A stretch of DNA of 30,680 nt from a virus: positions 1-30,680 of the IMG/VR virus record IMGVR_UViG_3300041409_000414, one strand, 5' to 3'. Position numbers and translations under genes: made by a program. The notes beneath the pieces were generated by a model, which saw nothing but the letters and a program-made list of their open reading frames with translations, was not told the origin of the DNA and searched no databases. Positions 7,421 through 30,680 of this stretch are shown in pieces; position 1 is the first letter of the stretch, and each line of letters opens with the position of its first letter.

Positions 7421-7963
7421 TCAGGCGAACAGAGCGTCGACCGCCGCCTTCGACTGTACGGTGTCCGCCGCGATCGCGGCCTTGACCGCAGCGAATTTAT
7501 CGAAGCAGGAGTTGACGTGAGCCAGCACCGCGTTCGATACCGCGATGATCTGATCTGCCGTCAGCGAGTAGACGTTGCCGTCCGAGCCCGCCCAATTCGC
7601 CTTGAACGCGGGATCCGCAGTCGCTGCGATCCGCGCGCCCATGAGCATCTGCTTTGAGCGGTCATCTGTGGCGATCGGGATGCCGTTGAAAACAATTCCG
7701 GCATTCTCTTTCGCGTACCGGGCCGTCGCCGCATAGGCAGCAAGTCCGGCCGGTGTGTGAACGACGATGTCCGGCGCGGCCTCCGCGAGAACGGCAATCA
7801 GGCTCGCCTCGCCGTCGATCAGTGTGGCGTGGCCGCCGCCGTCGAGCCACGCCTTGAACGTCGCATCGGTGAGATCGACATAACCGCCGGTCGCACTCGA
7901 AAAAACCTGTGTCGACCGTCCGAGGACAGCCCAGTACCAGTTTCGCGGATTGTAACTAATCAT
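7421..7963 (-). CDS. DUF4376 tail fibre-associated protein
   Basis: 180 aa. The C-terminal part (about 85-180) shows the DUF4376 pattern: a start like NAGIVFNGIPIATDDRSKQML, then a long helical section with FKANWAGSDGNVYSLTADQII and ending in VKAAIAADTVQSKAAVDALF. DUF4376 domains sit in small proteins next to tail fibre genes and are thought to help fibre assembly or form part of the tip. The N-terminal 80 residues (YNPRNWYWAVLGRSTQVFSS) look like the common small-fibre N terminus. It follows the tail spike gene by 14 bases, so it belongs to the same transcript; a terminator lies just downstream. Confidence 0.7.
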   Translation of the reverse strand: MISYNPRNWYWAVLGRSTQVFSSATGGYVDLTDATFKAWLDGGGHATLIDGEASLIAVLAEAAPDIVVHTPAGLAAYAATARYAKENAGIVFNGIPIATDDRSKQMLMGARIAATADPAFKANWAGSDGNVYSLTADQIIAVSNAVLAHVNSCFDKFAAVKAAIAADTVQSKAAVDALFA

Positions 7964-7977
7964 TGGTCCCTGCCCTG

Positions 7978-9369: not shown

Positions 9370-10060
9370 TGGTTGTCACCTCATAGACTTGAAGGATTTC
9401 AGCGTGGATCACGCGCGAAAGGATGCACTGCAACGGTAGGAGATCGGGTTGGCACGACAGCCGCCGGCCCGCTCGCATCCGGCCAGCACGCGAAGGCAGA
9501 TAGCGGGCGACAGGCTGATAGGCCGGACTGTTGGGAAGCGAGACGATGATGCGGAGGACGGAGAAGCCTAGCGTCGCACCAGCCTTTGCGCGGCCAGCCC
9601 TCGCGAAGCCGGCGTGGCTGCCGCAGCTTCGGAGAGCTTCGCCACACTGGATCGACCAGCCGGAGCGCGCCGCGACCTCCGCGTAGTATTCGCAGCGAGT
9701 GCCGCCGATCGCCGCGACCTTCGTGCAGAGATCAGGGAAGGGATCGCAGGCGTCCGGTAGGCCGTATTCGTTCATCCAGTCGGCGCGCGTCTCGGCGATG
9801 CTCTGACACCAGAACTCCAGCCGCAGCGCGCAAATGCGGTCGGAGAGGTATTGCATCACGATGGCGAACGCTCGCCAGTAGAGATAAAGGATGCTCGGAT
9901 TTTTGCGCGCTGCCGAGAACGCGGCGGGATTGAACGCGGTCGGATTGAAGGCCGCAACCATCCCAGGACGCGGCGATCCTTCGCGGGTTTGCCACGCTCG
10001 GCCGCGCGGGAGCAGCGCGAGCGTGGCCGTGGTGATGTCGTCAAGCGTTGGACAGCGCAT
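9362..10060 (-). CDS. Mu gp48-like tail protein (DUF2313/YmfQ family)
   Basis: 232 aa. The N terminus (CPTLDDITTATLALLPRGRAW) and the central RLEFWCQSIAETRADWMNEYGLPDACDPF are the hallmarks of the Mu gp48/YmfQ family, which joins the baseplate wedge to the tail fibres. The segment FNPTAFNPAAFSAA is a short repeat. The C-terminal part is rich in Arg and Cys and less typical, possibly the fibre-facing surface. It lies directly after gp47, as in Mu. Confidence 0.85.
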   Translation of the reverse strand: MRCPTLDDITTATLALLPRGRAWQTREGSPRPGMVAAFNPTAFNPAAFSAARKNPSILYLYWRAFAIVMQYLSDRICALRLEFWCQSIAETRADWMNEYGLPDACDPFPDLCTKVAAIGGTRCEYYAEVAARSGWSIQCGEALRSCGSHAGFARAGRAKAGATLGFSVLRIIVSLPNSPAYQPVARYLPSRAGRMRAGRRLSCQPDLLPLQCILSRVIHAEILQVYEVTTNV

Positions 10061-10081
10061 GGTGACGAAGGCCCTTTCTGT

Positions 10082-11218
10082 TTAGGTGAACGTCACCGTC
10101 CCGAGCGTCGCCATTTGTCCTGCGGTGAGAGCGACGTCAGCGACCGGCGACACGATCACGTGCCGCTGTTCGCCGGTCGCATTGGCGACGGCTTGCCAAA
10201 TCCACGAGAGGGAGAACGAGGTGGGATATGCCAGATACGGCATGCTGCCGAAGTTGCTGTCATTGCCTGCAACGCGAGACAGTCGGATGAATGTGTCGAG
10301 CAGCTCGGCCAGCACGGCGTTCTGCACGTCCAATGTATTCGGCTGCAGGCCCGAAATGGTGATGTTGACCGGCACAGCCTGCGGCGCGGCTACCGTAACC
10401 CTCGCGCCAGCGGGGCGGACGGTCTCGATGTAGTTCTGCACTCGCACCACGTCGGCGGGCGACGGGATGCCGTTGGCATAGAGATCATACATCAGCGGAA
10501 ACACGCGCACCGTGCCGGGGCCGTTCCACAGCCTCTCGACGTAGACGGTCGGCCGGTCGATATAGAACGACACGCCCGCGACCTGGCCCGCCCACTGGAC
10601 ATAGTCCGCGGCGCTGCCGCCGTGCGGTGGGTTGCGCTTCCGGAACAGGATGCGCGCGCGCCAGCTCTCGATGTCCTCGAGGTCGGCGCCGAGCGAGATC
10701 CCGTTGCTGTCGACTGCTGCCGTCGGCGCGGTCCCGGTCACGCCGGAGACGATGGAGAGATTGGTGCCGGGATTGCAGTTGGTGATTTTGCCGTCCACCG
10801 CCGCGATGACCGACACGCTGACGCTGCCAGCGGTCGCGATTGAGCCGCCAGTGGTGACAATGAACTGCACACCGTCGGTGCGCTGCAGGATCGCGCCGTT
10901 GGCGATGGAGACCGCGCCGGTATCGGTGACGATGACGACGCCTTCGGCGGGCGCGGCCGGGTTCTGCGGAATGTTAAATTCGATCCCGTGATTTCCCAGG
11001 CTCTCGATGTCCGGCGCGCTGAAAGCGAACATTTGTTTCTGGACGTAGGCGAGGAAGCCCATCGCCTCGAACACCATTGCGCCGATGACCTTGGCGCTGA
11101 CGTAGACGTTATTCGGCCACAGCCAGGCATCGCTCCCCTTGAGGACGGAACGAAACGCCGAGCGCGACCGCTCCACGAGATCGTTGATCGACGGCAGCTT
11201 GTAGGATGACAGGAACAT
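10082..11218 (-). CDS. Mu gp47-like baseplate wedge protein (baseplate J family)
   Basis: 378 aa, near the usual length. It starts LPSINDLVERSRSAFRS and continues AWLWPNNVYVSAKVIGAMVFEAMGF, then GIEFNIPQNPAAPAEGVVIVTDTGAVSIANGAILQRTDG, the conserved beta-rich core of baseplate J/gp47 proteins. ESWRARILFRKRNPPHGGSAADYVQWA is the typical motif before the C-terminal VxVxP-like repeats. The protein forms the wedges around the hub of a contractile-tail baseplate. It follows gp46 by 10 bases and precedes gp48. Confidence 0.9.
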   Translation of the reverse strand: MFLSSYKLPSINDLVERSRSAFRSVLKGSDAWLWPNNVYVSAKVIGAMVFEAMGFLAYVQKQMFAFSAPDIESLGNHGIEFNIPQNPAAPAEGVVIVTDTGAVSIANGAILQRTDGVQFIVTTGGSIATAGSVSVSVIAAVDGKITNCNPGTNLSIVSGVTGTAPTAAVDSNGISLGADLEDIESWRARILFRKRNPPHGGSAADYVQWAGQVAGVSFYIDRPTVYVERLWNGPGTVRVFPLMYDLYANGIPSPADVVRVQNYIETVRPAGARVTVAAPQAVPVNITISGLQPNTLDVQNAVLAELLDTFIRLSRVAGNDSNFGSMPYLAYPTSFSLSWIWQAVANATGEQRHVIVSPVADVALTAGQMATLGTVTFT

Positions 11219-11228
11219 TCGGCAGGCC

Positions 11229-11813
11229 TCACGTCGGGAATTGCGGGAAGGGCTTCGGCGCCGGCGACGTCACCGACTGCTGCCAGATGTCGTCAAAGCG
11301 GTGGCTGTAGGACCGCGTGCCGTCGCGGCCGTAAAGATCGATGAGGAGATCGCAGCGGTCCTCCGCGAATTCCGCAAAGGCCTGAGTGTCGATGCGGGTG
11401 ACGGCGCCTTGTTTGACAAGCGGCGTGAGCGCGTCGAGCGCGATCGCCTCGACCCAACGCCGAATATCTTCGGTGAGGGGTGCGCGCTCGAATACCCAGA
11501 GCAGCGATCCCATTTCAGTCTCACCGAGATCGCTCTGCACGTCGGCGCCATCGCCCCACCAGCCGCGAGGATCACCGTCGCCCACCAGGTAGCGCAGCGG
11601 GTGGTCGTCCTGAATTCGCTTGTCGGTGAAAAGCGCAATGATGACAGAGGTATGCAGTGCGGCTTTGGCACGTAGCCCGCCTTGGTTCTGCGGCTCGTCG
11701 GGGCCCGCCATCGCCCAGTCGGCCATACCTTCGGACGGCGACCACACGCTGTCCCAGAGCAGGATCGGTTGCTTGTCCTCGCCCTCGTTGATCCGGATGC
11801 GGAGAGAAGCCAT
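11229..11813 (-). CDS. Mu gp46-like baseplate protein
   Basis: 194 aa. The motif DPRGWWGDG with the following LGSLLW-type segment (TEMGSLLWVFERAPLTEDIRRWVEAIALDAL) identifies the Mu gp46 family, the small baseplate protein with a gpW/gp25-like role that connects hub and wedges. The start codon lies directly beside the stop of gp45, with no gap. Order and length agree with Mu. Confidence 0.9.
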   Translation of the reverse strand: MASLRIRINEGEDKQPILLWDSVWSPSEGMADWAMAGPDEPQNQGGLRAKAALHTSVIIALFTDKRIQDDHPLRYLVGDGDPRGWWGDGADVQSDLGETEMGSLLWVFERAPLTEDIRRWVEAIALDALTPLVKQGAVTRIDTQAFAEFAEDRCDLLIDLYGRDGTRSYSHRFDDIWQQSVTSPAPKPFPQFPT

Positions 11814-12425
11814 TTAGACCGCCTTAACTTTCGTGGCGCATCCGCCGCCGCACAGCCCGACGAGCGTTCCGCCCAAGCCGCCCAGGTTCACGTCGGGACT
11901 GTCGACGATGACCGTCGGCGCTTTCACCGTGGCCTTGCCGCTTTCCAGTTTGAACGAGGCATCGTTGAAAGTGATCGTCACCGAGTTGCTGTCCGCGACG
12001 ATGGAGATCGTCGGGCCGCTGTAATTTGCGGCATCCTTGGCGTCGTAGCCCTTGCCGATCTGCAGGTTGATCTTCTTGGCGTGCGTGACGCCGAAGTGAT
12101 CCTTATCGGTCTGCAGCAAGTTGCCGTATTGATCGAACAGGCCCGCCGAGCCGGCCGGCCGGTTCCTCGGCCGATAGTCCTTGTGGCCGCCGTCGAGGTA
12201 GAGCGTGCGATCGGAGCGAGATCCCATCTGCACAACGACGCCGTCGGTGTCGTTCGGTGGCACGGAGAAGTAGCCGAAGTCCATCGGCCGCCAGACCTTC
12301 TTCGGCAATTCGTTCTTGAGTATCTTGAGGTCCACCAGCTGCTGAGTGCCGCTGTCGTCCACCTTCGTGATGCGGCCGCGACGCGTCGTCACCCGGATGC
12401 CGTCGTCGTGCTCCCAGCTGGACAT
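11814..12425 (-). CDS. Mu gp45-like baseplate spike protein (gpV family)
   Basis: 203 aa. It opens with DDGIRVTTRRGRITKVDDSGTQQLVDLKIL (an OB-like domain), continues with a beta-rich part containing GVVVQMGSRSDRTLYLDGGHKDYRPR, and ends with a repetitive beta segment (SVTITFNDASFKLESGKATVKAPTVIVDSPDVNLGG) as in the membrane-piercing spike of contractile tails. The C-terminal CGGGCATK contains two cysteines; many spikes hold a metal at the tip, but the usual HxH motif is absent. It is placed between hub gp44 and gp46. Confidence 0.88.
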   Translation of the reverse strand: MSSWEHDDGIRVTTRRGRITKVDDSGTQQLVDLKILKNELPKKVWRPMDFGYFSVPPNDTDGVVVQMGSRSDRTLYLDGGHKDYRPRNRPAGSAGLFDQYGNLLQTDKDHFGVTHAKKINLQIGKGYDAKDAANYSGPTISIVADSNSVTITFNDASFKLESGKATVKAPTVIVDSPDVNLGGLGGTLVGLCGGGCATKVKAV

Positions 12426-12429
12426 TCGA

Positions 12430-13476
12430 TTATTCCCCCATGTCCCATTCGCCGCCGGATTGGTTGCCCTTACCGCCGCCCGCCCCCTCGCCGCCGTAGG
12501 CGCGAGGGTCGGTGAGGTTCAGCGTGGTGATGCTGCCTTTTTCCGATTGGTGGTAATCGACGCTCTCGATCAGCATGTCTTGCGCGATGTCGAGGAACGG
12601 GCTCTCGGTCCAGACCAGATTGCCCGGCTCCCACAGCTGGCCGCTGTCATCGTGGAAGCCCTGCACCGTGATAGTCGCCTTGAGCGAGTTGCCCGCGGTG
12701 CGGTCCTTGCGGTTTTTCGCCCGCTTCTTCGCCCGCTTTTTGTCGGTGTCGCTGTCCTGCACGATGATGAGCGCGCGGTGCCGTTTTACGGCGCTGTCTT
12801 TCTCCGTCTCCTCGATCCACAGGTTGTCGTCATCGTGGCCACTCGGGCGCTGGCCGCGCACGGTGATTTCAGAATGGCGATTAGCCGAGTTGTGATGCGC
12901 CACGCCGATCTTGATCGACACGCCTTCGATGAGCGATCCGCCCTGGCGGTCGCTTCCCGCCTTCGTGATCTTGGCGTTGCCTTCCTTCGTGCCGGTGATC
13001 GTCATGCCCTGATCGCGGGCCATCTTCTCGACGCAGCGGAAGCAGCTTTCGCCTTGCTGCAATTTATATTGGTCGATCTTCTCCAGCTGCTGATCGCTCT
13101 CCCACTTCGGGCCGTATTTGCTGGAAACTTCCTGCGCGATTTCGAGCGGCGTCTTGTTCTCGAAATAGCCGGTGTCGTGCTCGGCGCTGCCGTCGACCAG
13201 GTCGGCCGACTTCGACCGCCCGCTGATCTCGATGTAGGCCTCGGTCGCGGAGAGGTGCGGCTCCTTTTGGTCGACGTGGCCGGTGAACAGGAGCTCGCCG
13301 TTGGTGGTGATCGTCACGTCGGTGCCAACGTCGAAGATGCGGTTGACGGTGGAGGCGCCCAGCTCGGCCGCGAGCGTGGCTGAGAATGAGCGCGCCGCCT
13401 CGTTGAAGGCGGCGTGCACGGTGACTTCCTCAAAGGCGGTCCAGCCGTTGATGCTGATCGTTTCAATGCTCGCCAT
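12430..13476 (-). CDS. Mu gp44 (P)-like baseplate hub protein
   Basis: 348 aa from the ATG at 13476, whose A is shared with the TAA of the preceding gene (TAATG overlap); the longer frame to 13581 is out-of-frame shadow. The order of segments (TISINGWTAFEEVTVHAAFNEAARSF, DVTITTNGELLFTGHVD, YIEISGRSKSADLVDGSAEH, FENKTPLEIAQEVSSKYG, ESCFRCVEKMARDQGMTIT) is the classic tail hub fold of Mu P/gp44, related to gpD of P2. A Lys/Arg-rich stretch near residues 260-275 (KKRAKKRAKNRKDR) follows. It forms the central ring that holds the spike. Confidence 0.88.
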   Translation of the reverse strand: MASIETISINGWTAFEEVTVHAAFNEAARSFSATLAAELGASTVNRIFDVGTDVTITTNGELLFTGHVDQKEPHLSATEAYIEISGRSKSADLVDGSAEHDTGYFENKTPLEIAQEVSSKYGPKWESDQQLEKIDQYKLQQGESCFRCVEKMARDQGMTITGTKEGNAKITKAGSDRQGGSLIEGVSIKIGVAHHNSANRHSEITVRGQRPSGHDDDNLWIEETEKDSAVKRHRALIIVQDSDTDKKRAKKRAKNRKDRTAGNSLKATITVQGFHDDSGQLWEPGNLVWTESPFLDIAQDMLIESVDYHQSEKGSITTLNLTDPRAYGGEGAGGGKGNQSGGEWDMGE

Positions 13477-14747
13477 TACCGCGACAACGCCTCGAACGAG
13501 ATCGGAAAGAACGACGGATGCGGGAGGCGATTGCGGGCGACCAGCTCGGGGGAGCGCGTCGGGTCGGCGTAGAGCCGCCATGCCCAGAACAGGCTCGGCA
13601 TTGACAGGTTCGCCTCGACCGTGACCACCGGAGCAAGGTCAATGATCGTGCGCGACAGATACGTGACGACCTTGTCCCGAAGCAGGGAGATCGCGTGCAC
13701 GAGATCAATGCTGCCCGAAGGCAGATCGTCGGTCTGTTGCGCGAAATACTCCACGACATTGGCGCGCAGCGTGATCGCGGCCGGCCGGTCGGGGAGCGAC
13801 ATGCGGGCGATCGCCTCCGCATAGGCCGTCGCCGCCGCGAGCCGGAGCATCTGGTAGGCGGCGTTGGCATTGTCGTCCGCGGTGCGCCTCGAGGGCGTCG
13901 GATAAGCGGACTTGACGGCAAGCGAGGCCAGCGAGGGATCGGTAAGGATTTGCTCGAACGCCGAGACCGCCGCGCTGGCGGGCATGGCATCGCCCAGCGC
14001 CCGGGCGACCGCGACGATGCGCTGCGGGAGCGTGGCGATCGCGGCAGGGTCCGCGAGCAGAGCGGGCACGTCGGAGAACAAGGACTGGATTTCGTTCCGC
14101 TGTGCCGAGCTGACGACCGGATCGACCGGCTGCGAGGTCCGCACCGCTTCCATCACGGCCACGGCGTCGAGCGTGCGGTCGCTGACTGCGGCGACCACGT
14201 AGTCCGCCTGGCGGGTGACTTGGACGCTCTTCACGAAGGCGTTGGCGATCGCCAGCGACGTGGCGTCGGCCTGCACGAAAACGAGGTTCGCCAGCGAGCC
14301 GATGGAGGCCAGCGCCGAGGACGCGCCTTCGCGGGCGAAGCGCAGTTCCAGCGCGATATAACCGTGCTTGTCCTTCTGCCGGTTCCGCTTGAAGGTCAGC
14401 GCGCGGACGATGATAGGACCGTGAGACGGCAGGACGAGCGCGCCAGCGCCTCGCGTGGCGCATACCGCGATCACCGAAGCCGCATCGCCGTCCGCGCTGT
14501 CGGATGCCACGTAGGCGTCGCAGCGGTAATGCCGGACGCCTTCCCCGAGGTCCTCAAGGAACGGATCGTCCCGCATCGGGAATTCGTGCTCCACGATGCG
14601 GCGCGAGCCCTCCTCCTCGTCCCACTCCACCTTGAACGGCACGCCTTTGTAGGAGGCGGGCCACAGCGTATGCAGCCAGTCGCGCGCGCGCACGGCTTGC
14701 GGCCGCACCGGCGGGGCCGGGGCGGTGTTGGGAGGGAACGTCGCCAT
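13476..14747 (-). CDS. Mu N-like DNA circularisation / tail protein
   Basis: 423 aa. The N-terminal ~100 residues (RDWLHTLWPASYKGVPFKVEWDEEEGSRRIVEHEFPMRDDPFLEDLGEGVRHYRCDAYV) are the diagnostic domain of the Mu N family, whose product in Mu enters with the DNA, protects and circularises it, and also behaves as a baseplate/tail protein. The rest is long, Ala-rich and helical, with a beta-like insert. Its start is two bases before the tape-measure stop codon's end, so the genes are tightly linked. Its presence without head genes is notable (see findings). Confidence 0.9.
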   Translation of the reverse strand: MATFPPNTAPAPPVRPQAVRARDWLHTLWPASYKGVPFKVEWDEEEGSRRIVEHEFPMRDDPFLEDLGEGVRHYRCDAYVASDSADGDAASVIAVCATRGAGALVLPSHGPIIVRALTFKRNRQKDKHGYIALELRFAREGASSALASIGSLANLVFVQADATSLAIANAFVKSVQVTRQADYVVAAVSDRTLDAVAVMEAVRTSQPVDPVVSSAQRNEIQSLFSDVPALLADPAAIATLPQRIVAVARALGDAMPASAAVSAFEQILTDPSLASLAVKSAYPTPSRRTADDNANAAYQMLRLAAATAYAEAIARMSLPDRPAAITLRANVVEYFAQQTDDLPSGSIDLVHAISLLRDKVVTYLSRTIIDLAPVVTVEANLSMPSLFWAWRLYADPTRSPELVARNRLPHPSFFPISFEALSR

Positions 14748-16796
14748 TTATGGAACCCCGTTGAAGCCTACCGCTGGCGCCGCAGCGTCCGGACTGCTCT
14801 TGCCGGTCGAGCCGGGACCGTTCGCCGTGAGCGAGCCGATCAGCTTGATGCCGTTTTCCATCTTCTGAACCAGCGCCTTGAGATACTCGCTGGCCTCCAC
14901 CACGATGGTCTGTTTCACCTCGCCGTGGACTTCAGCCGATCCGGACAACGTCGCCTGCACGTTCGCGCCTTCGAGCGATTGCACCGGAGGCATCCCGCCC
15001 GCGCCCGCTTCCGCAGGACGCGGCGTCGGAGTGGGGATGGTCGGAGCGCCTGGCCGTGAGCCGTAGTTGCCGCGGTTATGCTCGCGAGCGCGCTCCTGCC
15101 ACTGCTCCATCTCGGCGTCGGAATAGATCGAAGGCATGGTCGCGGCGTTGTTCGATTGATCGATGCCGGACTGCAGGTCGAACCGGCGCAAGCGCAGCTT
15201 GCGGGCGGTGGCGTCGTCCAGATAGCCGCCGGCGAGCTTGCCGTCGATCTCGCGCGCCTGAGCCGCGAGGTTCTCGCGGTTGGTTCGCTCGTTGAGAGCC
15301 TCGACCGGAGTTCCCAGTTCTTTCAGCCAGCGACCGCCGCGCGTGTCCTCTCCGACCTTGCCGCTGTTGACCGCCTTGGTGAAGTTGCCCAGCGCCTTGG
15401 CCGCGCTGTTCAAGGCGTCGATCACCGGGCCGATCTTCGCCACTGCGGTGCTGGCGTCGAGGAGCTGTTTCTTGACACCTTCAAAGGCGAGCCCTGCATC
15501 CTTGCGTTGGAGGTCGTCCATCTTCTCGAGGCCGACCGTGTGGCGGCTCCTCGCGCGCTCGACCAGCGGCTGATCCAGAAGATTGGTCAGCACCAGGTCC
15601 GCGGCATTCTTTGCCGAAAAGTGGGCCGAGGTGAACTTGACCGCCTTGGCCTTGTCCTCCTCGCTCATGTCCTCGCCGAATTTCACTCCCTGCTTTTCGA
15701 GCAACGGCCGAATGTGGTGCTGGGTCCAGTCGAAATTGTTGGAGATCCAGCCCTCTTGGTCGATCAGCTTGCCGTCCTTGAACAGCCCGTCCTCGGTGAG
15801 CGCCTTGCGCGCACGCGCCGTCATGCGGTTGCCCACCATTGCGGAGAGGCCGGTGGAGAGCTTGTTGCCAAAGCCCGACGTGTGAGAGGCGAGGATCGGA
15901 AACACGTTCTCCATGTAGTCCTGGCTCATGGCGTATTTGGCCGAGCTCGCCGCCGCCATGTCGGTGCGGAATTGCTCCCCGGTGTAATCCGGGTTAGCCG
16001 CCTTCGCCTTTGAGAAGGCGTTCAGGCCTCGCACCAGCTGCTCAGAGCTGTTCGCCTTGCCCATGCCTTCGAGCGCGCGAACCACCTGCTCCATTTCGTG
16101 TTCGTCGCCGCCGTTCAGCTTGTTGGCGATCATGGCGCGCGCGAACGGCTCAGCGACTTCCTTCGAGCGGTCCCAGGAGCCGAGCCGCGAGGCGTTGCTG
16201 CGGAGATAGTCCAGCACTTCGGTGCGCGAGATTGAGGGGAACTTGGAGGAGATACTGTCCGCGATCACGTTGCCTTCGCCGAGCTGGCCGTCGCTCAAGC
16301 CCATCTGCTCGTAGCGGACCCCAGCGCGGTTACGCGCACTGGCCGCGACGGCGCCGGCGCGGATCGCGTGGCCGGTGGCGTAGGCGGCTCCGCCGATGCC
16401 TGCGGCGTGGAGCGCGAAGTTGCCTGCGCCCTTAAAGAATTTCTTATGCGACTTGTCGGCGTCCTCCGCTGCGGCCTTGACGTTGCGCCAGTGATCGACG
16501 GTCTTGCCCTGCCAGTCGTTCATGGCGCGGAAATAATGCTCCGCCTTCGGCCGATGCTCTTTCAGCATCTGCTCGTATTGGCCGAAGGATTTGCGGACGC
16601 CCTGCAGCTCCTTCTCACTGAGCTTGAGCCGCTCCAGCTCCTTGAACATATCGCCGGTAAACTTCGGGGCCTTGATGCCCTCCAGCGATTTGCCCGCTTT
16701 CTCGATGCCCTTGAACTTCTTGGCGATGGCGTCAAAGACGTTGCCGGTTTTGTCGGCGGCCGAGATAACGGCGCGGGCCTCTATGATCTTAGACAT
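14748..16796 (-). CDS. Tail tape-measure protein, copy A
   Basis: 682 aa. The N-terminal ~120 residues are charged and helical (FDAIAKKFKGIEKAGKSLEGIKAPKFTGDMFKELERL), and a hydrophobic segment follows (about 130-155, NFALHAAGIGGAAYATGHAIRAGAVAAS). The rest is Ala-rich and helical with a Pro-rich part near the C-terminal end (PTIPTPTPRPAEAGAGGMPP). This is the layout of Mu-type tape measures, which set tail length and reach the cell membrane during DNA entry. It lies just before the N gene, as in Mu. A nearly identical copy of its C-terminal half is at 29587-30680. The two copies differ strongly over about 15236-15412. Confidence 0.85.
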   Translation of the reverse strand: MSKIIEARAVISAADKTGNVFDAIAKKFKGIEKAGKSLEGIKAPKFTGDMFKELERLKLSEKELQGVRKSFGQYEQMLKEHRPKAEHYFRAMNDWQGKTVDHWRNVKAAAEDADKSHKKFFKGAGNFALHAAGIGGAAYATGHAIRAGAVAASARNRAGVRYEQMGLSDGQLGEGNVIADSISSKFPSISRTEVLDYLRSNASRLGSWDRSKEVAEPFARAMIANKLNGGDEHEMEQVVRALEGMGKANSSEQLVRGLNAFSKAKAANPDYTGEQFRTDMAAASSAKYAMSQDYMENVFPILASHTSGFGNKLSTGLSAMVGNRMTARARKALTEDGLFKDGKLIDQEGWISNNFDWTQHHIRPLLEKQGVKFGEDMSEEDKAKAVKFTSAHFSAKNAADLVLTNLLDQPLVERARSRHTVGLEKMDDLQRKDAGLAFEGVKKQLLDASTAVAKIGPVIDALNSAAKALGNFTKAVNSGKVGEDTRGGRWLKELGTPVEALNERTNRENLAAQAREIDGKLAGGYLDDATARKLRLRRFDLQSGIDQSNNAATMPSIYSDAEMEQWQERAREHNRGNYGSRPGAPTIPTPTPRPAEAGAGGMPPVQSLEGANVQATLSGSAEVHGEVKQTIVVEASEYLKALVQKMENGIKLIGSLTANGPGSTGKSSPDAAAPAVGFNGVP

Positions 16797-23075: not shown

Positions 23076-23945
23076 CTATTTCGGGAGAGGGTGCGTCTGG
23101 ACCTGCCAGACCTCGCCCTTGCGCTTGATAGCCGTCCTGATCGAGCTCTCCCATCGCCACTCTCGCGGCGCAGGCTCCTCGAGACTGTTCCACGCTGCCT
23201 CTATAAATTCAGCGAAGGCTCCTTGCGCAGTCGGCTTCTCCCCGACCAACCAAATCCATGTATCTCCAAGCCGGGAGACAAATTCAACGCGCCAAGCGTT
23301 CTGTGCATCCTCCGCGTTCTTCACCTCTTGCGAGAGCGTCAAGTGAAGCTCGGTCACTTCTGCTTTCGCTGAAGGGAGATGCTGGTCCAGTTCTTCGAGC
23401 AGCTCGGCGACGCGCATCGACGCGCGTAGACCGGAAAAGTCGGGCTCTAGCATTTTGTTGTGGGCAACTCGTAGAGACGCCAACTTAGCGACGTGCGCTA
23501 TATCGGTGGCATACTCAGCCGCGACGCCAGCGAATTTGTCGAGGTTGCGCATACGCTCACTTGCGGCGCTCAAGGGCGACCGGATTGTCTTTGCCACGGC
23601 CTCTGCTTTGCGCTGCTCGCTGCACGCGCGAGATAGTGCATAAACGGTGGAGCGGCGAGCGATCTCATAGGGACAGTGATCGCCGAAAGCCTGCGCGTCC
23701 CGCACTTTCATTATACGGTTGCGGCCGCGGACCTTCCCCTGAATTAGGCCAGTGACGAAGTCGTCGATTGGGATTGGCTTCTTCGGCTCCTGCCAAGCGA
23801 TCCAGTCCGGTGGCGGAGCTGGAATATAATCTGGTGGCGCGACCTTCGACCCCCAAAGCCTCCGTTCGATCCTGCTGAGAGACCATCGCATCTTGCGATC
23901 GCCGAATGTCGCTGGTGCTTCGCTCCCGAGATGCACCATGTTCAT
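23076..23945 (-). CDS. Hypothetical protein coupled to the integrase
   Basis: 290 aa from the ATG at 23945, which overlaps the integrase stop (ATGA); an ATG two codons on is an alternative. The N terminus has a Pro/Trp-rich segment (PDYIPAPPPDWIAWQEPKKPIPIDDFV). The centre is helical and charged (SEQRKAEAVAKTIRSPLSAASERMRNLDKFAGVAAEYATDIAHVAKLASLRVAHNKML), and the C-terminal part reads as alpha/beta (NAWRVEFVSRLGDTWIWLVGEKP). No motif or membrane segment is recognised. As the gene directly behind int it may be a cargo or regulatory gene of the element; function unknown. Confidence 0.65.
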   Translation of the reverse strand: MNMVHLGSEAPATFGDRKMRWSLSRIERRLWGSKVAPPDYIPAPPPDWIAWQEPKKPIPIDDFVTGLIQGKVRGRNRIMKVRDAQAFGDHCPYEIARRSTVYALSRACSEQRKAEAVAKTIRSPLSAASERMRNLDKFAGVAAEYATDIAHVAKLASLRVAHNKMLEPDFSGLRASMRVAELLEELDQHLPSAKAEVTELHLTLSQEVKNAEDAQNAWRVEFVSRLGDTWIWLVGEKPTAQGAFAEFIEAAWNSLEEPAPREWRWESSIRTAIKRKGEVWQVQTHPLPK

Positions 23946-25306
23946 GCTCTCAACTGAACCACGCGGCCGAGCCCTCGGAGATCGTCGAGATAGTCGGCCC
24001 ACCATTGAGACAGTCGGCGTCGCTGCTCGTGGTACGCCGCATCGTTGTACGTGCCGCGCACAGCATCCTCATCCATATGGTTCAACGCGGTTTCAATGAC
24101 GTCGGCGCGCGCGGCGTGGGCTTCGTTCGCCAACGTGGAGAACGCGCTGCGGAAGCCGTGACCTACGTGGTCGCTGTTCGCGTAGCCGAGCCGGCGCAGC
24201 GCCGAATTCATCGCGCTTTCCGATAGCGTGCGATAGCGGGAGCGCTTGACCGGCTGCCCATCCTTTCCGACCGTGCGGCGCGGTTGCTGGCAGGGGAAAA
24301 GGAAATCAGCGCCGGCAGCCGCGCGCTCGGCATCTGCCGTCCATCCGGTCAGTTGTCGAAGCTCCTCCAGCAACGCCACTGCTTGCCTGCTGAGGTAAAC
24401 CGTGTGGCTCTTGCGCATCTTCATGAGGGAAGGTGGCAATGTGATAACCGGCTCCTCGCCGTCGGCGTCGACCCAAGACCAGCGCAGCCGCCGCAGTTCG
24501 CCTGGCCGAAGTCCGGTCAGCGTGAGCAATTCGAGTGCGATGCGGGTTTGCGCAGCGCCGTGGTAGCCGCGCACGTCGCGGAGGAGCTTTCCAAACCGGC
24601 GCGCGGCGTCCCCGTCGCGGTCACCTTCGCGCGCATCCGTGACGCTGGCGTGGTGCTGTACGGCCTTGGCACCCCTAATCGCAATGTCGCCGTTTCTGGT
24701 ATCGCCTAGCGGGTTGATCGGGATGGCGCCGCGCCGGGCCGCACGGGCAAGCACGCGGCTGACGGTCGCGCGGCAGCGGTGGGCTGTGTCACGTTGGCCG
24801 CGGGCGCCTATGCGGTCGAGCGCGTCAACAATCTGCGCTGTCGTCAACGTGCGCGCGTCCAGCTTGCCGAGCTGGGGCCTAACCAGCGATAGCAACCATT
24901 CCAGTTTTCCGAGTGTCTCTGGGGACCGCCTGCGCTGATCTTTGGGCGCGTCCAGTCCGCCGGTGAGGCTGCGTTGATCTTCGAGCCAATCCTTAGCGAT
25001 GCGGTCGAATGTCGTCAGATGCGCTACGGTCGCGGCGTGCTTATCCGCCTTCCGTTTTTCAGATGGATCGATCCCTGCCGCCAGGATCCGCTTGTTTGCG
25101 TCGCGCGCGTCGCGCGCGGCCGCGAGGCTGACGTGCGGATAGACGCCCAAAGCGATTGTCTTTTGCTTGCCGCCGAAGCGGTACGCCTGCCGCCAGAGCC
25201 GCGATCCTGCCGTCTCAACGAGCAAATAGAGGCCGCCGCCATCGCTCGATTTGTATGGCTTTTCAGCTTTCTTGGCAGCTCGACAGACTACGTCCGTCAA
25301 CGCCAT
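23942..25306 (-). CDS. int: P4-type tyrosine integrase
   Basis: 454 aa, slightly longer than the family's ~400-430. The N-terminal DUF4102 arm-binding domain (YKSSDGGGLYLLVETAGSRLWRQAYRFGGKQKTIALGVYPHVSLAAAR) occupies residues ~18-90. A SAM-like core-binding domain follows (~100-200), then the catalytic domain with Arg267 (TGLRPGELR), His383 and Arg386 (GHGFR), His410 and Tyr420 (RGTYNDAAYHEQRRRLSQWWADYL). All key residues are present, so it should be active. It catalyses site-specific insertion and excision. It reads into the element from the right, with the likely attachment region in the 422 bp upstream. Such integrases usually target tRNA genes. Confidence 0.93.
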   Translation of the reverse strand: MALTDVVCRAAKKAEKPYKSSDGGGLYLLVETAGSRLWRQAYRFGGKQKTIALGVYPHVSLAAARDARDANKRILAAGIDPSEKRKADKHAATVAHLTTFDRIAKDWLEDQRSLTGGLDAPKDQRRRSPETLGKLEWLLSLVRPQLGKLDARTLTTAQIVDALDRIGARGQRDTAHRCRATVSRVLARAARRGAIPINPLGDTRNGDIAIRGAKAVQHHASVTDAREGDRDGDAARRFGKLLRDVRGYHGAAQTRIALELLTLTGLRPGELRRLRWSWVDADGEEPVITLPPSLMKMRKSHTVYLSRQAVALLEELRQLTGWTADAERAAAGADFLFPCQQPRRTVGKDGQPVKRSRYRTLSESAMNSALRRLGYANSDHVGHGFRSAFSTLANEAHAARADVIETALNHMDEDAVRGTYNDAAYHEQRRRLSQWWADYLDDLRGLGRVVQLRA

Positions 25307-25372
25307 CTGACTGTCTCCCTGTTTTTGCTTTTCCCGAACCGTTGTTGGTACCGCTTCAGCCGGGTCTCGGTC

Positions 25373-25392
25373 ATACCAACGGAGATACCAAC
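25373..25392. repeat. Paired ATACCAAC repeat upstream of int
   Basis: ATACCAAC-GGAG-ATACCAAC: two 8-bp copies 12 bases apart. The same spacing and the CCAAC core appear in the iteron array at 20773-20882 when read on the minus strand. An inverted single copy, GTTGGTAC, lies at 25344-25351. These may be integrase arm sites or binding sites for a shared regulator. Confidence 0.75.
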
Positions 25393-25403
25393 AAAAAACG
25401 CGA

Positions 25404-25425
25404 TGGCGGGCGAAGGGGAGCGAAC
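25404..25425 (-). other. Attachment-core candidate resembling a tRNA-Gly 3' end
   Basis: On the minus strand this reads GTTCGCTCCCC followed by TTCGCCCGCCA. The usual alphaproteobacterial tRNA-Gly(GCC) 3' end is GTTCGAATCCC followed by TTCGCCCGCTCCA (from memory); CCCTTCGCCCGC is shared exactly. It lies about 100 bases upstream of int, where P4-type integrases have their attachment core. No tRNA body precedes it, so it is at most a core or remnant. Confidence 0.35.
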
Positions 25426-25582
25426 ACTGACGAAGGAAAAACGTCTATATTTCAGCGACTTTTGTCACTCAAACGGAGACTAGCGAAAGCTGGTGAATAG
25501 TCAAATGGTGCCGGTTGAGAGGACCGCTAAACGTACATAACCTATTGATAAGTATGGTATATTCTCCGAATAACTCGGCGTG

Positions 25583-25602
25583 ATACCAACCCAAATACCA
25601 AC
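25583..25602. repeat. Second paired ATACCAAC repeat
   Basis: ATACCAAC-CCAA-ATACCAAC, with the same length and 12-base period as the pair at 25373-25392, about 210 bases away and in the same direction. The region between the two pairs is lower in GC than its surroundings and has no gene. The two pairs lie on either side of the attachment-core candidate. Confidence 0.75.
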
Positions 25603-25728
25603 AGCGCGCGAAGGCGGGCGGAGTTTTGCCGGGAAAACGAAAGCATTCTAGGGCATACCTGCTTTTGATCAATTGCGCCGCGCCCAAAAGTTGCAGCATC
25701 ATCCGGGCAGGTCGGGGGGATTGCAAAC

Positions 25729-27186
25729 ATGGCTGGCGCTGATTGGACAACGAGACGCGTGAGCGTCGCGAGCCTTCATCTTGATCCGAAGAATCCGCGC
25801 TTGGGGCGCGAGACGCTGGCGCAGGCGCCACGTGAAATCATTCAGTACCTTTTTGAGCACGATAAGGCCCTAGAAGTGGCCGAAAGCATCGCGACCCGAG
25901 GCTTCTTTCCCAACGAACCTCTTTTGGCCGTCAGCGAAAACGACCGTCTAGTCGTCGTCGAAGGCAACCGGCGGCTGGCAGCGCTCAAAGCATTGCGAGA
26001 ACCCGGGCTCCTCGATGGGGCACAGCAGCGCCAGATCGAAAAGATCGCCCGGAAAATCATAGACCCTCAATCGCTAGCCTCCGTACCTGTAACTATCGCG
26101 CCCGATCGCCGTGCCACCGATCGGCAGATCGCTGGCCGGCATATCGGAACGCCGGTGCTCGCTTGGCAGGCTGAGAACAGAGCAAGCTTCATTCTCGAAA
26201 AGTTAACCGAGGGGTACGATAACGACGAATTACGCGATGAACTCGGGTTTTCAATCGCTGACATCCAGAGCGCGCGACAGACCAGAGCAATTGCCGACAT
26301 GGCCAGGTCGCTGCCGCTGCCGGAGGAGATCAAGGCCAAGCTGGACAGCCCGCGGGCGAAAATCTTCACAACGCTCGGCAGAGTGATCGACAGTTCCGTC
26401 GGACGCCAACATTTGCATGTCGAGAAGGACGGCGATCACGGCATTCGGATCACAACCGCGAAGCCAGAATTCGTCAAAGCCTTCAGCAAGCTTGTTTCGG
26501 ACGTCGCGCTAGGCACACAATCGTCCCGCACCCTGAATACAAGTGAAGATATCGAAAACTACTTCAAGAGTTGGAAGCCAAGCGAGAGGCCGGCGAAGAA
26601 GAAGGCCACATTTGTTCCCGCCGACATCATCGAAGGGAAGTCGGTCGCATCGCCGGCCAAAGCGGCCCCGGCGCGCCCTGCAGCGAAGAAAGCGAAATCG
26701 GTCTCAACAACCGTGTTGCCTCGCGACTTCAAGGTTCGGCATGGGTCAGAGCGCCTTGTCGACATCCGGTCCGAACTTGTGCGCTTGAAGCGCAGCGAAT
26801 TTCCGAATGCTGGCGCCGTGCTGATGCGTGTCTTCTTTGAGCTTGCCGTAACCAGCTATCTCGACAGAACGGGGCAGATGAAGTCGTTGATCGAAAGGCT
26901 CGGCGGCAAGGGCAAGTTGCCTTACGGCGTACCGCAGATGAAGCAAATGGCTCCAGCGATCACCAAGATCGCGAAGGAAAAGCTGGACGCATCGGACGCA
27001 AACAAGGTGGAGAAGGCGCTGCGCTACGACGCAGCCGCGCCATTCTCCTTGAGTGAACTTCACGCGTTCATTCATCAGTCGGGGGACTTGCCTAGCGAAC
27101 GCGATATCTGGCAATTCTGGTTGCGAACCGAACCACTATTCCGGTTGATGTTAGAAGCCGATGACGAAGAAGATCTAGGCAAATGA
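25729..27186 (+). CDS. ParB-like domain protein coupled to a DNA methyltransferase
   Basis: 485 aa, ribosome site GGGGGA upstream. The N-terminal ParB/sulfiredoxin-like domain (about 8-110) has RRVSVASLHLDPKNPRLG, VAESIATRGFFPNEPLLAV and the signature VVVEGNRRLAALKAL (GNRR at 79-82, in place of the GERR/GHRR of classical ParB). A helical DNA-binding-like region follows (about 150-215: YDNDELRDELGFSIADIQSAR). Then come a Lys/Ala-rich linker (~290-330) and a C-terminal helical domain (ELVRLKRSEFPNAGAVLMRVFFELAVTSYL, HAFIHQSGDLPSERDIWQFW) that I do not recognise. There is no ParA and no parS, so plasmid partition is unlikely. Its stop overlaps the Dam gene (ATGA), suggesting the pair works together, for instance in modification or defence. 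Confidence 0.75.
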   Translation: MAGADWTTRRVSVASLHLDPKNPRLGRETLAQAPREIIQYLFEHDKALEVAESIATRGFFPNEPLLAVSENDRLVVVEGNRRLAALKALREPGLLDGAQQRQIEKIARKIIDPQSLASVPVTIAPDRRATDRQIAGRHIGTPVLAWQAENRASFILEKLTEGYDNDELRDELGFSIADIQSARQTRAIADMARSLPLPEEIKAKLDSPRAKIFTTLGRVIDSSVGRQHLHVEKDGDHGIRITTAKPEFVKAFSKLVSDVALGTQSSRTLNTSEDIENYFKSWKPSERPAKKKATFVPADIIEGKSVASPAKAAPARPAAKKAKSVSTTVLPRDFKVRHGSERLVDIRSELVRLKRSEFPNAGAVLMRVFFELAVTSYLDRTGQMKSLIERLGGKGKLPYGVPQMKQMAPAITKIAKEKLDASDANKVEKALRYDAAAPFSLSELHAFIHQSGDLPSERDIWQFWLRTEPLFRLMLEADDEEDLGK

Positions 27187-28043
27187 GCCAAGCGAGCCCA
27201 CTTCGATACCCCGGCGGCAAGGCGGCCATGGCCGGGCTTCTGGGCCAAATCCGCAAACTGAACGGCCTTGGTTCACACTCGGTTGCAGAGCCCTTCGCCG
27301 GCGGCGCCGGCGCGTCGCTCTCACTTCTTTTCCGAGAGGAAACGTCCGAAATCCACATCAACGACGCTGACGTGTCAATCTACGATTTCTGGTGGTCGCT
27401 GACGAACCGACCGGAGCAGTTCTCCAAGCTGTTGAAGAAAACGCGCGTTAGCATGGCTGAGTGGCGCCGCCAGCGCGACACCTATCGATCGAACGATGGC
27501 CGATTGTCTCGACTTACCCGCGGGTTTTCCGCCTTTTACCTAAATCGCTGCAATCGATCCGGCATCATCATGAACGGTGGACCAATCGGCGGCATAAATC
27601 AAACGGGCGATTGGTTGATCAATGCTCGCTTCAACAAGGAAGAACTTCACCGCCGCTGTCGAAAGATCGCAGAGTATCGCGACCGAATATTCGTCACCGA
27701 CAAAGACGGCATTGATTTCGTGAAAGGTCAGGACGCTTCGCGCACATTTTATTTCATCGACCCGCCCTATTTCGATAAGGGCAAAACGCTCTACCTCAAC
27801 GCCCTCGATAAGGAATACCATAAGCGTCTTGCGGATCAGCTGCGTTCAATGGTCAACGATGCTTGGGTGCTGACCTACGACGATTGCAGAGAGATCAGGC
27901 AACTCTATCGAGGATGGGCCACCATAAGGCCGTTCGGGTTGCGCTATGCGGCTTCCGAGAGACGCAGCGGCAGCGAAATCATGATCGTTCCGAAGTGGAT
28001 GAAGCTACCTCAGACGCAGAGCTCTGAAGCTATCGACTGGTGA
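27183..28043 (+). CDS. DNA adenine N6-methyltransferase, D12 (Dam) class
   Basis: 286 aa, close to Dam length. The SAM-binding motifs are present: PLRYPGGKAAM (6-16), VAEPFAGGAGASLSLLF (34-50), HINDADVSIYDFWWSL (58-73). The D12 signature FSAFYLNRCNRSGIIMNGGPIGG (115-137) and the catalytic DPPY (193-196) are complete. The enzyme should add a methyl group to the N6 of adenine in a short DNA site; the site cannot be read from sequence. There is no restriction endonuclease beside it. The 4-base overlap with the ParB-like gene implies coupled translation. It could act as cargo modifying DNA to avoid restriction, or as part of a ParB-Dam defence pair. Confidence 0.88.
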   Translation: MSQASPLRYPGGKAAMAGLLGQIRKLNGLGSHSVAEPFAGGAGASLSLLFREETSEIHINDADVSIYDFWWSLTNRPEQFSKLLKKTRVSMAEWRRQRDTYRSNDGRLSRLTRGFSAFYLNRCNRSGIIMNGGPIGGINQTGDWLINARFNKEELHRRCRKIAEYRDRIFVTDKDGIDFVKGQDASRTFYFIDPPYFDKGKTLYLNALDKEYHKRLADQLRSMVNDAWVLTYDDCREIRQLYRGWATIRPFGLRYAASERRSGSEIMIVPKWMKLPQTQSSEAIDW

Positions 28044-28065
28044 TGAAAACGGCCTGAAGGCAATT

Positions 28066-28091
28066 GGGGCGGCGGTTCTCACCGCCGCCCC
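28066..28091. terminator. Strong hairpin between convergent genes
   Basis: GGGGCGGCGGT-TCTC-ACCGCCGCCCC is a perfect 11-bp stem with a 4-base loop, 22 bases after the methyltransferase stop and ahead of a convergent gene. A T-rich run (CTCCTTTTCGTTTCTT) follows only at a distance on the + strand. It is probably a terminator, perhaps for both directions. Confidence 0.6.
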
Positions 28092-28126
28092 CCTGTTGGC
28101 TTGATCTCCTTTTCGTTTCTTGAAGT

Positions 28127-28453
28127 CTACTGCTCGCGGTGTTCGCTATACCGCTGCATCTGCTCGCGCGCGATTGCCGCGCAGCGATTGCCAAATTCGA
28201 CCGTATCGAAATCGGCCGTCGTGCTGTCGGCCGCCGCGGAAAGTCCAAAGGCAGCCTTTGCAATATGCGCATAGGCAAGTGTTGGCACCACATCGGCGAT
28301 GCTGCGGCCGGCCTCTCTACCGTAGACCTCCATCACGTGAGCATCTAGCTCGACTGCAACTGCGCTCCATGTTTCGACCATTTCCCTGAGTTCGCCTAGC
28401 AGCACATCGTCATGCTCTCCCCTAGGAAGGTTCAGTGGCTTTAGCTTATTCAT
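28127..28453 (-). CDS. Hypothetical small helical protein
   Basis: 108 aa from the ATG at 28453, which has AAGGA nine bases upstream; an earlier ATG seven codons before lacks a ribosome site. The product is acidic and helical (DDVLLGELREMVETWSAVAVELDAHVMEVYG, IADVVPTLAYAHIAKAAFGLSAAADS) with no motif I recognise. It lies between the methyltransferase and ASCH genes, downstream of the CTACGTT palindromes, which may regulate it. Confidence 0.6.
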   Translation of the reverse strand: MNKLKPLNLPRGEHDDVLLGELREMVETWSAVAVELDAHVMEVYGREAGRSIADVVPTLAYAHIAKAAFGLSAAADSTTADFDTVEFGNRCAAIAREQMQRYSEHREQ

Positions 28454-28525
28454 CGACGATTTCCTTACTTTCATTGACAGTGACTGCTTAGTGGAAGGCC
28501 TGCCGATGCCAAAGCAAAAAGCCTC

Positions 28526-28649
28526 CTACGATTTGAAGCTGTGGAATACTACGTTCTGTAGGCGCGCAGGTGATTGCGATGAACACCGCTGGCAATGACA
28601 AGCCAAATCCTTCGCTAATGATCTCAGCGCGAAGAACTACGTTATGTAG
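28526..28649. promoter_or_regulatory. Palindromic CTACGTT-type sites
   Basis: CTACGTTCTGTAG (28549-28561) and CTACGTTATGTAG (28637-28649) differ at a single base and are palindromes with CTAC/GTAG arms. A partial copy, CTACGATTTGAAG, lies at 28526-28538. They fill the gap between the ASCH gene and the small gene at 28127-28453, a good place for operators controlling the latter. The binding protein is unknown. Confidence 0.55.
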
Positions 28650-28661
28650 GTTAGAGTTATT

Positions 28662-29087
28662 CTAGAGACCTTCGGCCGCATCAGCTTCTGCGAAAGCGTT
28701 TTGCGGACCCGCATGATCGAGGATCAGCTCTAGCAAGTCCGAAGGCGCGGTCCGCAGCGAGAGCGCGCCCTTCCAACGGACGAAAGGTAGCGGCCGAGCG
28801 TTCGCGAGCACAAAGCCATAGCAGCCAGGGGCGTACCATTTGCTGGTGTGCGGCCGCACGCAGTCCACGAGCTCCACGACGCCGACGATACCGCCGAGCT
28901 GTCGCTCCGCTGGCAGATGCACTTCAAAGCGGCGCTCGATCTCCTCCGCAGTTACCGCGTCCGCCCTCAACGATGCGTGGACAAGCACAGGACCGCGATA
29001 GCGCGTCAGCCAGGTGCGGTTCTCGACGTCCTTAAAGCCCTGCACAATGAGAGAGGCCCAGGGCTGACGGATGGAGATGATCTTCAT
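28662..29087 (-). CDS. ASCH-domain protein
   Basis: 141 aa. The N-terminal pattern ISIRQPWASLIVQGFKDVENRTWLTRYRGPVLVHAS is the clear ASCH signature (RQPWA, G.KDVENR, RYRGP..VHAS). It is followed by GGIVGVVELVDCVRPHTSKWYAPGCYGFVLANARPLPFV, the second half of the beta-barrel. ASCH proteins are small PUA-like domains that bind RNA or modified nucleic acids; one member, E. coli YqfB, hydrolyses N4-acetylcytidine. They are frequent in phages and islands. Next to a DNA methyltransferase, reading or processing modified bases is possible. It sits between the two phage-like regions. Confidence 0.85.
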   Translation of the reverse strand: MKIISIRQPWASLIVQGFKDVENRTWLTRYRGPVLVHASLRADAVTAEEIERRFEVHLPAERQLGGIVGVVELVDCVRPHTSKWYAPGCYGFVLANARPLPFVRWKGALSLRTAPSDLLELILDHAGPQNAFAEADAAEGL

Positions 29088-29281: not shown

Positions 29282-29590
29282 TTAGGAAAGCTCGTGCCTT
29301 GCAAAGCGCTCGATCTGATCCAGCAGCTGCGCCGCAGCCTCCTCCATCTCAAGCGCCATCAATTCGGCCTTCGCTGGATTTGCAAAACTCTCGGCCTTTA
29401 CCGATATGCTCTTCCGCAATTCTTCCAACAACTGAGCCCGGAGATCGTCGTTAGCCGATCGAAGAACGAACCCGACGGTGGTCGCAAAAATCACTTCACT
29501 GACCAGCTGACGCACCGCGAGACGGTCATAGCGGTCTTGCAAATTTTGGAGCGGGTCCGACGCCGTGCTCGCGGGGACGGCTGTCATCAT
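29282..29590 (-). CDS. Hypothetical helical protein downstream of the second tape measure
   Basis: 102 aa, starting inside the stop of the tape-measure gene (ATGA). A long helical section (LQNLQDRYDRLAVRQLVSEVIFATTVGFVLRSANDDLRAQLLEELRKSISVKAESF) and a C-terminal helix (MALEMEEAAAQLLDQIERFARHEL) suggest a bundle or coiled coil. In the first phage region the DNA circularisation gene stands in this place, so gene content differs right after the shared tape-measure end. Family not recognised. Confidence 0.6.
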   Translation of the reverse strand: MMTAVPASTASDPLQNLQDRYDRLAVRQLVSEVIFATTVGFVLRSANDDLRAQLLEELRKSISVKAESFANPAKAELMALEMEEAAAQLLDQIERFARHELS

Positions 29591-30680
29591 GGCACCCCGT
29601 TAAAGCCTACCGCCGGCGCGGAGGCGTCAGGCGACGATTTCCCGGTCGACCCAGGGCCGTTGTTGCTGAGAGAGCCGATCAGCTTGATGCCGTTTTCCAT
29701 CTTCTGCACAAGTGCCTTGAGATACTCGCCTGCTTCTACCACAAGCGTCTGCTTCAGCTCGCCGTGCACTTCGCCGGTCACGTTGGCCTGAACCGTTGCG
29801 CCCTCGAGCGTCTGCACAGGCGGCATTCCGCCTGCGCCGGCTTCCGCAGGACGCGGCGTCGGCGTGGGGATGCTCGGAGCGTTTGGCCGCGAGCCGTAGT
29901 TGCCGCGATTATGCTCGCGAGCGCGCTCCTGCCACTGCTCCATTTCGGCGTCGGAATAGATCGAAGGCATGGTCGCGGCGTTGTTCGATTGGTCGATGCC
30001 GGACTGCAGGTCGAACCGGCGCAAGCGCAGCTTGCGGGCGGTCGCGTCGTCAAGATAACCGGGGGTGCCCAGCTTGCCGTCGATTTCATCGGCCTGGGCG
30101 CCCAGATTGTCACGGTAGTTCAATTCAGTCTGGTCTACCCCCGAGCCGGTCTTGCTGAGCTTGTCCCGCCAGCGGCCGAACGGGCTGTCTTTCGGCAATT
30201 CGCCCTTTTCGAGAGAGTTCGTGAAGCGGCCTAGTTGAGATGCGACATTGTTCATGGCGTCGACCACCGGGCCGATTTTCGCCACTGCGGTGCTGGCGTC
30301 GAGGAGCTGCTTCTTGACGCCTTCGAAGGCGAGCCCTGCATCCTTGCGCTGGAGCTCGTCCATCTTCTCGAGGCCGACTGTGTGGCGGCTCCTCGCGCGC
30401 TCCACCAGCGGCTGATCCAGAAGATTGGTCAGCACCAGGTCCGCGGCGTTCTTTGCCGAAAAGTGGGCCGAGGTGAACTTGACCGCCTTGGCCTTGTCCT
30501 CCTCGCTCATGTCCTCGCCGAATTTCACTCCCTGCTTTTCGAGCAACGGTCGAATGTGGTGCTGGGTCCAGTCGAAATTGTTGGAGATCCAGCCCTCTTG
30601 GTCGATCAGTTTGCCGTCCTTGAACAGCCCGTCCTCGGTGAGCGCCTTGCGCGCACGCGCCGTCATGCGGTTGCCCACCA
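29587..30680 (-). CDS. Tail tape-measure protein, copy B (C-terminal part; runs off the window)
   Basis: The last ~364 aa of a tape-measure protein; the N-terminal half lies beyond the right edge. From the edge to about 30285 it is almost identical at DNA level to copy A (in the outer ~300 bp I count four differences). It then diverges for about 65 residues (NNVASQLGRFTNSLEKGELPKDSPFG... against NSAAKALGNFTKAVNSGKVGEDTRGG...). It is nearly the same again to the end, including FDLQSGIDQSNNAATM and the PTPTPRPAEAGAGGMPP region. No frameshift is seen. It indicates a second related prophage to the right. Confidence 0.85.
   Translation of the reverse strand, partial: VGNRMTARARKALTEDGLFKDGKLIDQEGWISNNFDWTQHHIRPLLEKQGVKFGEDMSEEDKAKAVKFTSAHFSAKNAADLVLTNLLDQPLVERARSRHTVGLEKMDELQRKDAGLAFEGVKKQLLDASTAVAKIGPVVDAMNNVASQLGRFTNSLEKGELPKDSPFGRWRDKLSKTGSGVDQTELNYRDNLGAQADEIDGKLGTPGYLDDATARKLRLRRFDLQSGIDQSNNAATMPSIYSDAEMEQWQERAREHNRGNYGSRPNAPSIPTPTPRPAEAGAGGMPPVQTLEGATVQANVTGEVHGELKQTLVVEAGEYLKALVQKMENGIKLIGSLSNNGPGSTGKSSPDASAPAVGFNGVP

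Follow-up and report, generated by a model that had tools for sequence, protein, structure and literature searches.

What would a phage do with a ParB-like gene that runs straight into an adenine methylase? The question is raised by a stretch of viral DNA, positions 1 to 30,680 of IMG/VR record IMGVR_UViG_3300041409_000414 (hereafter the window, meaning all 30,680 nucleotides), in which two overlapping open reading frames (ORFs), here called gene A and gene B, lie between an integrase gene and further phage genes (Table 1). An initial annotation, made from the sequence alone, had described A as a 485-aa ParB-like protein with a GNRR motif whose gene overlaps a complete D12 methylase gene by four bases, and the ORFs, motifs, and family profiles all agree with that description. 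The form of the overlap, ATGA, makes it probable that A and B are translationally coupled. Profile matches and the loci of relatives give good support to the pair being a PD-λ-5 anti-phage defence cassette, i.e., a new example of a system that was already described in 2022 and not a new kind of system.

The A-B pair and the PD-λ-5 defence system

PD-λ-5 was discovered by a functional screen of E. coli, in P2-like prophages, and defends E. coli against most of the phages tested; it was assayed in an mrr-deleted host, and its discoverers termed it a compacted restriction-modification (RM) plus abortive infection (Abi) system while leaving its mechanism open (Vassallo et al. 2022, PMC9519451). 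It is frequent in prophages (PMC10482375) and is present in Pseudomonas islands (PMC12629846) and in Vibrio (PMC12824646). A 2013 review noted fusions of ParB to HEPN as well as operons that group HEPN genes with genes for ParB and a DNA methylase (PMC3710099).

The product of gene A matches more than 20 PADLOC PD-Lambda-5_A models, the best of them at 4.2e-47 (159 bits) over residues 5-478 of 485, and the product of gene B matches PADLOC PD-Lambda-5_B at 3.3e-96 over residues 3-281. A also matches PHROG 9592 (1.6e-34) and, below the threshold, NCBIfam parB_part (5e-5); a Pfam profile search recognised no domain anywhere in it. B matches Pfam PF02086 (MethyltransfD12) at 2.5e-13, above the cut-off, and with both its N-terminal S-adenosylmethionine-binding region and its DPPY motif (kept in 88/88 B relatives) intact in the alignment of relatives, it is predicted to be a complete D12-class N6-adenine DNA methyltransferase. 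PD-Lambda-5_A is already annotated in one Vibrio phage record.

To follow the pairing in other genomes, relatives' loci were gathered from phages, plasmids, viral contigs, and bacterial contigs (one genome per species). A scan of the viral contigs with the single A sequence gave nothing, and an alignment-based scan recovered relatives. A relative of A was counted as full-length when it had 425 aa or more and downstream sequence (n=92), and B was called adjacent when it lay -250 to +150 bp from A on the same strand; the resulting counts are over records that are not fully dereplicated. B is adjacent downstream on the same strand in 84 of the 92 and tail-to-tail downstream in another 3, while among the remaining five it stands elsewhere in the locus in four and is not found in the available stretch in one (L169). 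These relatives span viruses, plasmids, and many bacterial phyla. The commonest A-B spacing is -4 (25/86), and both motifs, GNRR of A and DPPY of B, occur in 88/88 pairs. With near-identical pairs removed, the pairwise distances of A are correlated with those of B (r=0.88, or 0.52 once close pairs are left out), the maximum among 2000 permutations being 0.10.

The very low E-values to named families, together with the recurrence in dozens of genomes, mean that the pair is not a product of chance. Conserved adjacency and correlated divergence support A being a partner of B, as the initial annotation had suggested for its ParB-like protein, which in that view could be a clamp, a nuclease, or a recognition factor. 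The reading of the pair as defence-type cargo is supported by the PADLOC match, the conserved pairing, and the position between the integrase with its att-like region and the phage genes.

Domain anatomy of A

The GNRR motif of A is at residues 79-82, inside the ParB-like N-terminal domain. An AlphaFold2 model built on 82 sequences has a mean predicted local distance difference test score (pLDDT) of 90.6, and in a structure search its residues 7-286 resemble KorB, ParB, and Noc. KorB matches over this whole span (Z 10.1, 200 residues, root-mean-square deviation (rmsd) 4.5) and ParB-CTPγS over 94 residues (Z 9.1, rmsd 2.3). In the model, then, the N-terminal half has the look of a ParB CTPase-like domain followed by a helix-turn-helix (HTH).

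The C-terminal domain, which had been left as unrecognised in the initial annotation, is HEPN-like in fold once modelled. In the same search, residues 337-483 of the full model align with the HEPN domain of AbiA at Z 7.7 and with that of Csm6 at Z 6.6. When the domain was modelled alone (pLDDT 90.4; VIA-align), the top eight solved structures were all HEPN-type, with Z from 6.7 to 8.3, and the next matches fell to 5.6 and 3.7. The top rows include the HEPN/MNT toxins 7ae2 and 7ae6, YutE, and Csm6, and we take YutE, 2q00, 1wwp, 5yep, and 7bxo to be HEPN-type proteins. A PDB sequence search with the C-terminal alignment gave chance matches only.

Residues that are invariant or nearly so in the A alignment are N22, R24, E78, G79-R82, A85, H138, W146, and R218 in the N-terminal half and E349, R367, E371, and H449 in the HEPN-like domain, with H449 invariant across the 82 sequences. 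End-anchored counting, which uses the alignment ranges only, places H449 within about 5 residues of H377 of EiCsm6 (motif taken from PMC7101355) and of H107 of the HEPN/MNT toxin. R367 is nearly invariant but sits in another helix than H449. Where the initial annotation had seen no effector, A itself thus carries a likely one in its HEPN-like domain.

Proposed mechanism

Around the profile-based family membership, the conserved pairing, and the domain anatomy described above, we infer the following course of events, supposing this copy to be active. The pair, sited next to the integrase, would be cargo that the phage brings into the lysogen. B would methylate adenine at a specific DNA site, marking host and prophage DNA as self, and A, through its N-terminal nucleotide-binding domain and its HTH, would load on DNA in a nucleotide-gated manner and report DNA that is unmarked or otherwise foreign. 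Such sensing of the methyl mark would switch on the C-terminal HEPN-like domain, the putative toxic effector, which would most likely attack RNA as an RNase and stop the infected cell. Overall, the cassette would join an RM-like sensor to an abortive-infection output. Mrr attacks methylated DNA, so the choice of an mrr-deleted host for the PD-λ-5 assays would fit active adenine methylation. A PD-λ-5 cassette with a methyl self-mark, ParB/HTH sensing, and a HEPN-like toxic output is the best explanation of the locus, and we consider it likely to be correct.

Several points nevertheless weigh against this explanation. For a helical domain such as the C-terminal domain of A, Z values of 7-8 are only moderate, and Foldseek returned nothing significant for that domain (best E 3.7). 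A departs from the canonical R-x4-6-H motif of HEPN domains: the Arg of the motif is absent, the alignment around H449 showing none conserved from H-5 to H-7 and N/H/D at H-4. With this Arg missing, catalysis by the modelled HEPN-like domain is no more than plausible, and its RNase activity is uncertain. The searched collections did not yield the original PD-λ-5 proteins of E. coli, so membership rests on the PADLOC profiles and not on direct alignment. Finally, the right end of the window may come from a second related phage, either through tandem prophages or through an assembly join.

A DNA similarity search of the E. coli collection with six related pairs as queries also found no full-length PD-λ-5 pair. 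The only matches there were pieces of a related adenine methylase, next to which lies an ATP-dependent nuclease or AAA ATPase.

Alternative explanations

The alternative that survives best is a two-gene RM system in which A, as a ParB-like nuclease, would nick or cleave unmethylated DNA, the C-terminal domain would be structural, and B would protect self DNA. In its favour, B is an intact methylase, DNA-nicking ParB-type proteins have been described in the literature, the sister three-gene systems described below have a separate nuclease-like protein as well as methylases, and some of the systems of Vassallo et al., one of them with a methylase, have DNA-binding or cleavage components (PMC9519451). 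However, the invariant E349, R367, and H449 suggest a catalytic or effector role for the HEPN-like domain, and profile scans recognised neither a PD-(D/E)XK nor an HNH domain in A. We regard such a system as unlikely.

Under another alternative, the pair would be anti-restriction cargo: B would methylate phage DNA and so help the phage escape host restriction, and A would regulate or target B. Orphan adenine methylases are common in phages, and A has a DNA-binding HTH. Yet the pair also occurs outside phages, on plasmids and chromosomes of many phyla, its close relatives adjoin other methylase, helicase, and nuclease genes, and PD-λ-5 defends experimentally (PMC9519451), all of which leaves an anti-restriction role very improbable.

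A partition or plasmid-maintenance ParB with a hitch-hiking methylase would account for the ParB N-domain and HTH fold, but a partition role for A was rejected and has next to no chance of being right, since no ParA-type P-loop ORF and no canonical parS were found in the window, such an ORF lies near the ParB-like gene in only 1 of ~175 loci (that of a short-type relative), and the conserved neighbour is B, not ParA. There is, then, no regular association with parA. The initial annotation had reported the same lack of ParA and parS, and likewise of a restriction enzyme, which family profile scans did not recognise in A or in the scanned neighbouring ORFs.

Genomic setting and mobility of the cassette

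Phage genes lie to the left of the integrase, the right end of the window carries part of a tail gene, and the remaining window is that of a contractile-tail phage with baseplate, tail fibre, head protease, and primase/helicase genes. A promoter and terminator scan gave signals at chance level. Repeats of the ATACCAAC form sit between the integrase and A (25370-25603), and by their position upstream of the integrase they are probably its arm-binding/attP region.

Table 1. Features of the A-B locus (window coordinates, or residues of A where stated).
Feature	Position	Strand	Basis or remark
Tyrosine integrase, divergent from A	23942-25306	-	Arm-DNA-bind_3 and Phage_integrase (Pfam)
Att-like region, two repeat copies of GTCATACCAAC..ATACCAACA type	25370-25393 and 25580-25603	.	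Repeat search
Mobile cassette: ~250 bp 5' flank, A, and B	25475-28045	+	blastn, 82.6% DNA identity to Bradyrhizobium sacchari (L095)
Gene A (ParB-like, PD-λ-5 A)	25729-27186	+	485-aa ORF, ATG start
A: N-terminal ParB/Srx-like NTPase-type domain with GNRR	Residues ~1-142
A: middle part with HTH	Residues ~148-286
A: linker, low model confidence	Residues ~300-325
A: C-terminal HEPN-like helical domain, invariant H449	Residues ~337-483
A/B stop-start overlap ATGA, 4 bp	27183-27186	+	ORF coordinates, sequence
Gene B (D12 N6-adenine methyltransferase, PD-λ-5 B)	27183-28043	+	286-aa ORF
Small ORF, function unassigned	28127-28474	-	No family match
ASCH-domain gene	28662-29087	-	PF04266 3.1e-5 (above cut-off); phrog_3193 9.2e-43

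The DNA shared with Bradyrhizobium sacchari is a block of 2.57 kb that begins between the integrase and A and stops at the stop codon of B, and no relative of this phage's integrase was found in that genome. The sharing of the cassette without the phage integrase indicates that it moves independently of the phage. Just 3 of 147 sampled Bradyrhizobium genomes have relatives of A, and the G+C content is 57% in A and 55% in B against 62.5% in the window. Judging from a 90% identical relative, the phage appears to have its hosts among Bradyrhizobium-like alphaproteobacteria. The closest relatives have genes for another DNA methylase, a UvrD-like helicase, and a PD-(D/E)XK nuclease as neighbours, consistent with a defence-island context.

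The B. sacchari genome also holds a decayed second fragment of A (L095:552-874; G001:C8:270998-271339), 85% identical in DNA to window positions 25996-26318; the intact A-B pair of that genome lies ~5 kb downstream of it. In three other loci (L097, L103, and L106), close relatives of A-B stand just downstream of a gene for a 920-1100 aa protein with an N6/N4 methylase domain, and a UvrD-like helicase then follows in L097 and L103 and probably in L106 (a 713-aa gene); possibly this arrangement is a larger composite system.

The coordinates agree with the initial annotation in placing an ASCH gene and a small gene nearby, with the integrase on one side of the group and phage genes on the other. 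Neither of these two neighbours has a homologue in any relative's locus, and for want of such co-occurrence both were rejected as parts of the system. No viral relatives of the ASCH gene of the window were found.

Two observations underlie the possibility that the right end of the window comes from a second related phage. Positions 29587-30678 (minus strand) are a partial second copy, 86% identical, of 14751-15836 (minus strand), which is the C-terminal portion of a large gene at 14748-16796. In addition, a 61.5-kb contig (L268) is 100% identical to window positions 6751-15895.

Sister operons and a possible swapping of effectors

The search for relatives also gave a sister family with a three-gene layout, comprising a short ParB-like protein (~355-425 aa, without the HEPN-like domain), a protein of 300-370 aa, and then a methylase, usually convergent. 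The methylase is of the C5 type in ~36 records and of the D12 type (the family of B) in 21, and members include gp98-gp96-Mth of phage Wphi, L002, L041, L022, L140, and ~60 other loci. The middle proteins scanned had no Pfam or PADLOC match; they keep D203, Q226, and K236, a nuclease-like pattern by motif reading and not by profile match. Profile comparison detected no relation between the C-terminal domain of A and the sister middle protein. These operons resemble A-B in having a related ParB-like N-domain and a methylase neighbour, and differ in their short A, their separate middle protein, and their methylase, often of the C5 type and usually in convergent orientation. They are possibly an undescribed sister defence system.

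At two E. coli loci (L273:1930-4579 and L274:1924-4636), a D12 methylase related to B comes directly after a gene labelled 'ATP-dependent nuclease' or 'AAA family ATPase', which makes a further pairing of an effector with a methylase; the settings are an integrative conjugative element and the neighbourhood of an integrase. Together with the sister operons, these pairs hint that one methylase family is found with different effectors. Set beside the three-gene operons, A-B suggests that the sensor is common to both and that effectors and methylases are exchanged. We would only tentatively extend this to a broad class of ParB immune systems gated by methylation, in which one ParB-type sensor reads methylation as a self mark and is combined with interchangeable effectors (a fused HEPN-like domain in PD-λ-5, a separate nuclease-like protein in the sister operons) and interchangeable methylases (D12 or C5).

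Comparison with known systems

Compared with classical type II restriction-modification, the A-B pair differs in that no cognate restriction endonuclease was recognised beside the methylase. SspE and DUF262-type sensors share with A a ParB-like N-domain (SspE matches at Z 4.4), which in A would likewise be tied to DNA-modification status, but they have another effector domain and concern phosphorothioation, whereas the modification enzyme here is an N6-adenine methylase. The HEPN domains of AbiA (C-terminal domain), Csm6, and the HEPN/MNT toxins are like A in their helical C-terminal fold and an invariant His in the expected region; A differs in having no Arg of the R-x4-6-H motif and in its activating module.

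The ParB/KorB/Noc CTPase clamps likewise have an N-terminal nucleotide-binding fold with a G-x-R-R motif, followed by an HTH. They carry GERR where A has GNRR, and A, which goes without ParA and parS, has a HEPN-like domain in place of the C-terminal dimerisation domain.

For PD-λ-5 itself, the locus shows the system as mobile lysogenic cargo, next to the integrase gene of a phage whose hosts are probably Bradyrhizobium-like bacteria, and the residue-level anatomy of A (the GNRR pocket, the HTH, and the HEPN-like domain with its invariant His) makes the mechanism testable, which is of more interest here than novelty. This copy is only distantly similar in sequence to the PADLOC models, and its host group, apparently Bradyrhizobium-like alphaproteobacteria, lies away from the enterics of the reference system. 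It nonetheless shares with PD-λ-5 the two components with near-full-length matches, the A-B order with a methylase partner, and the prophage location.

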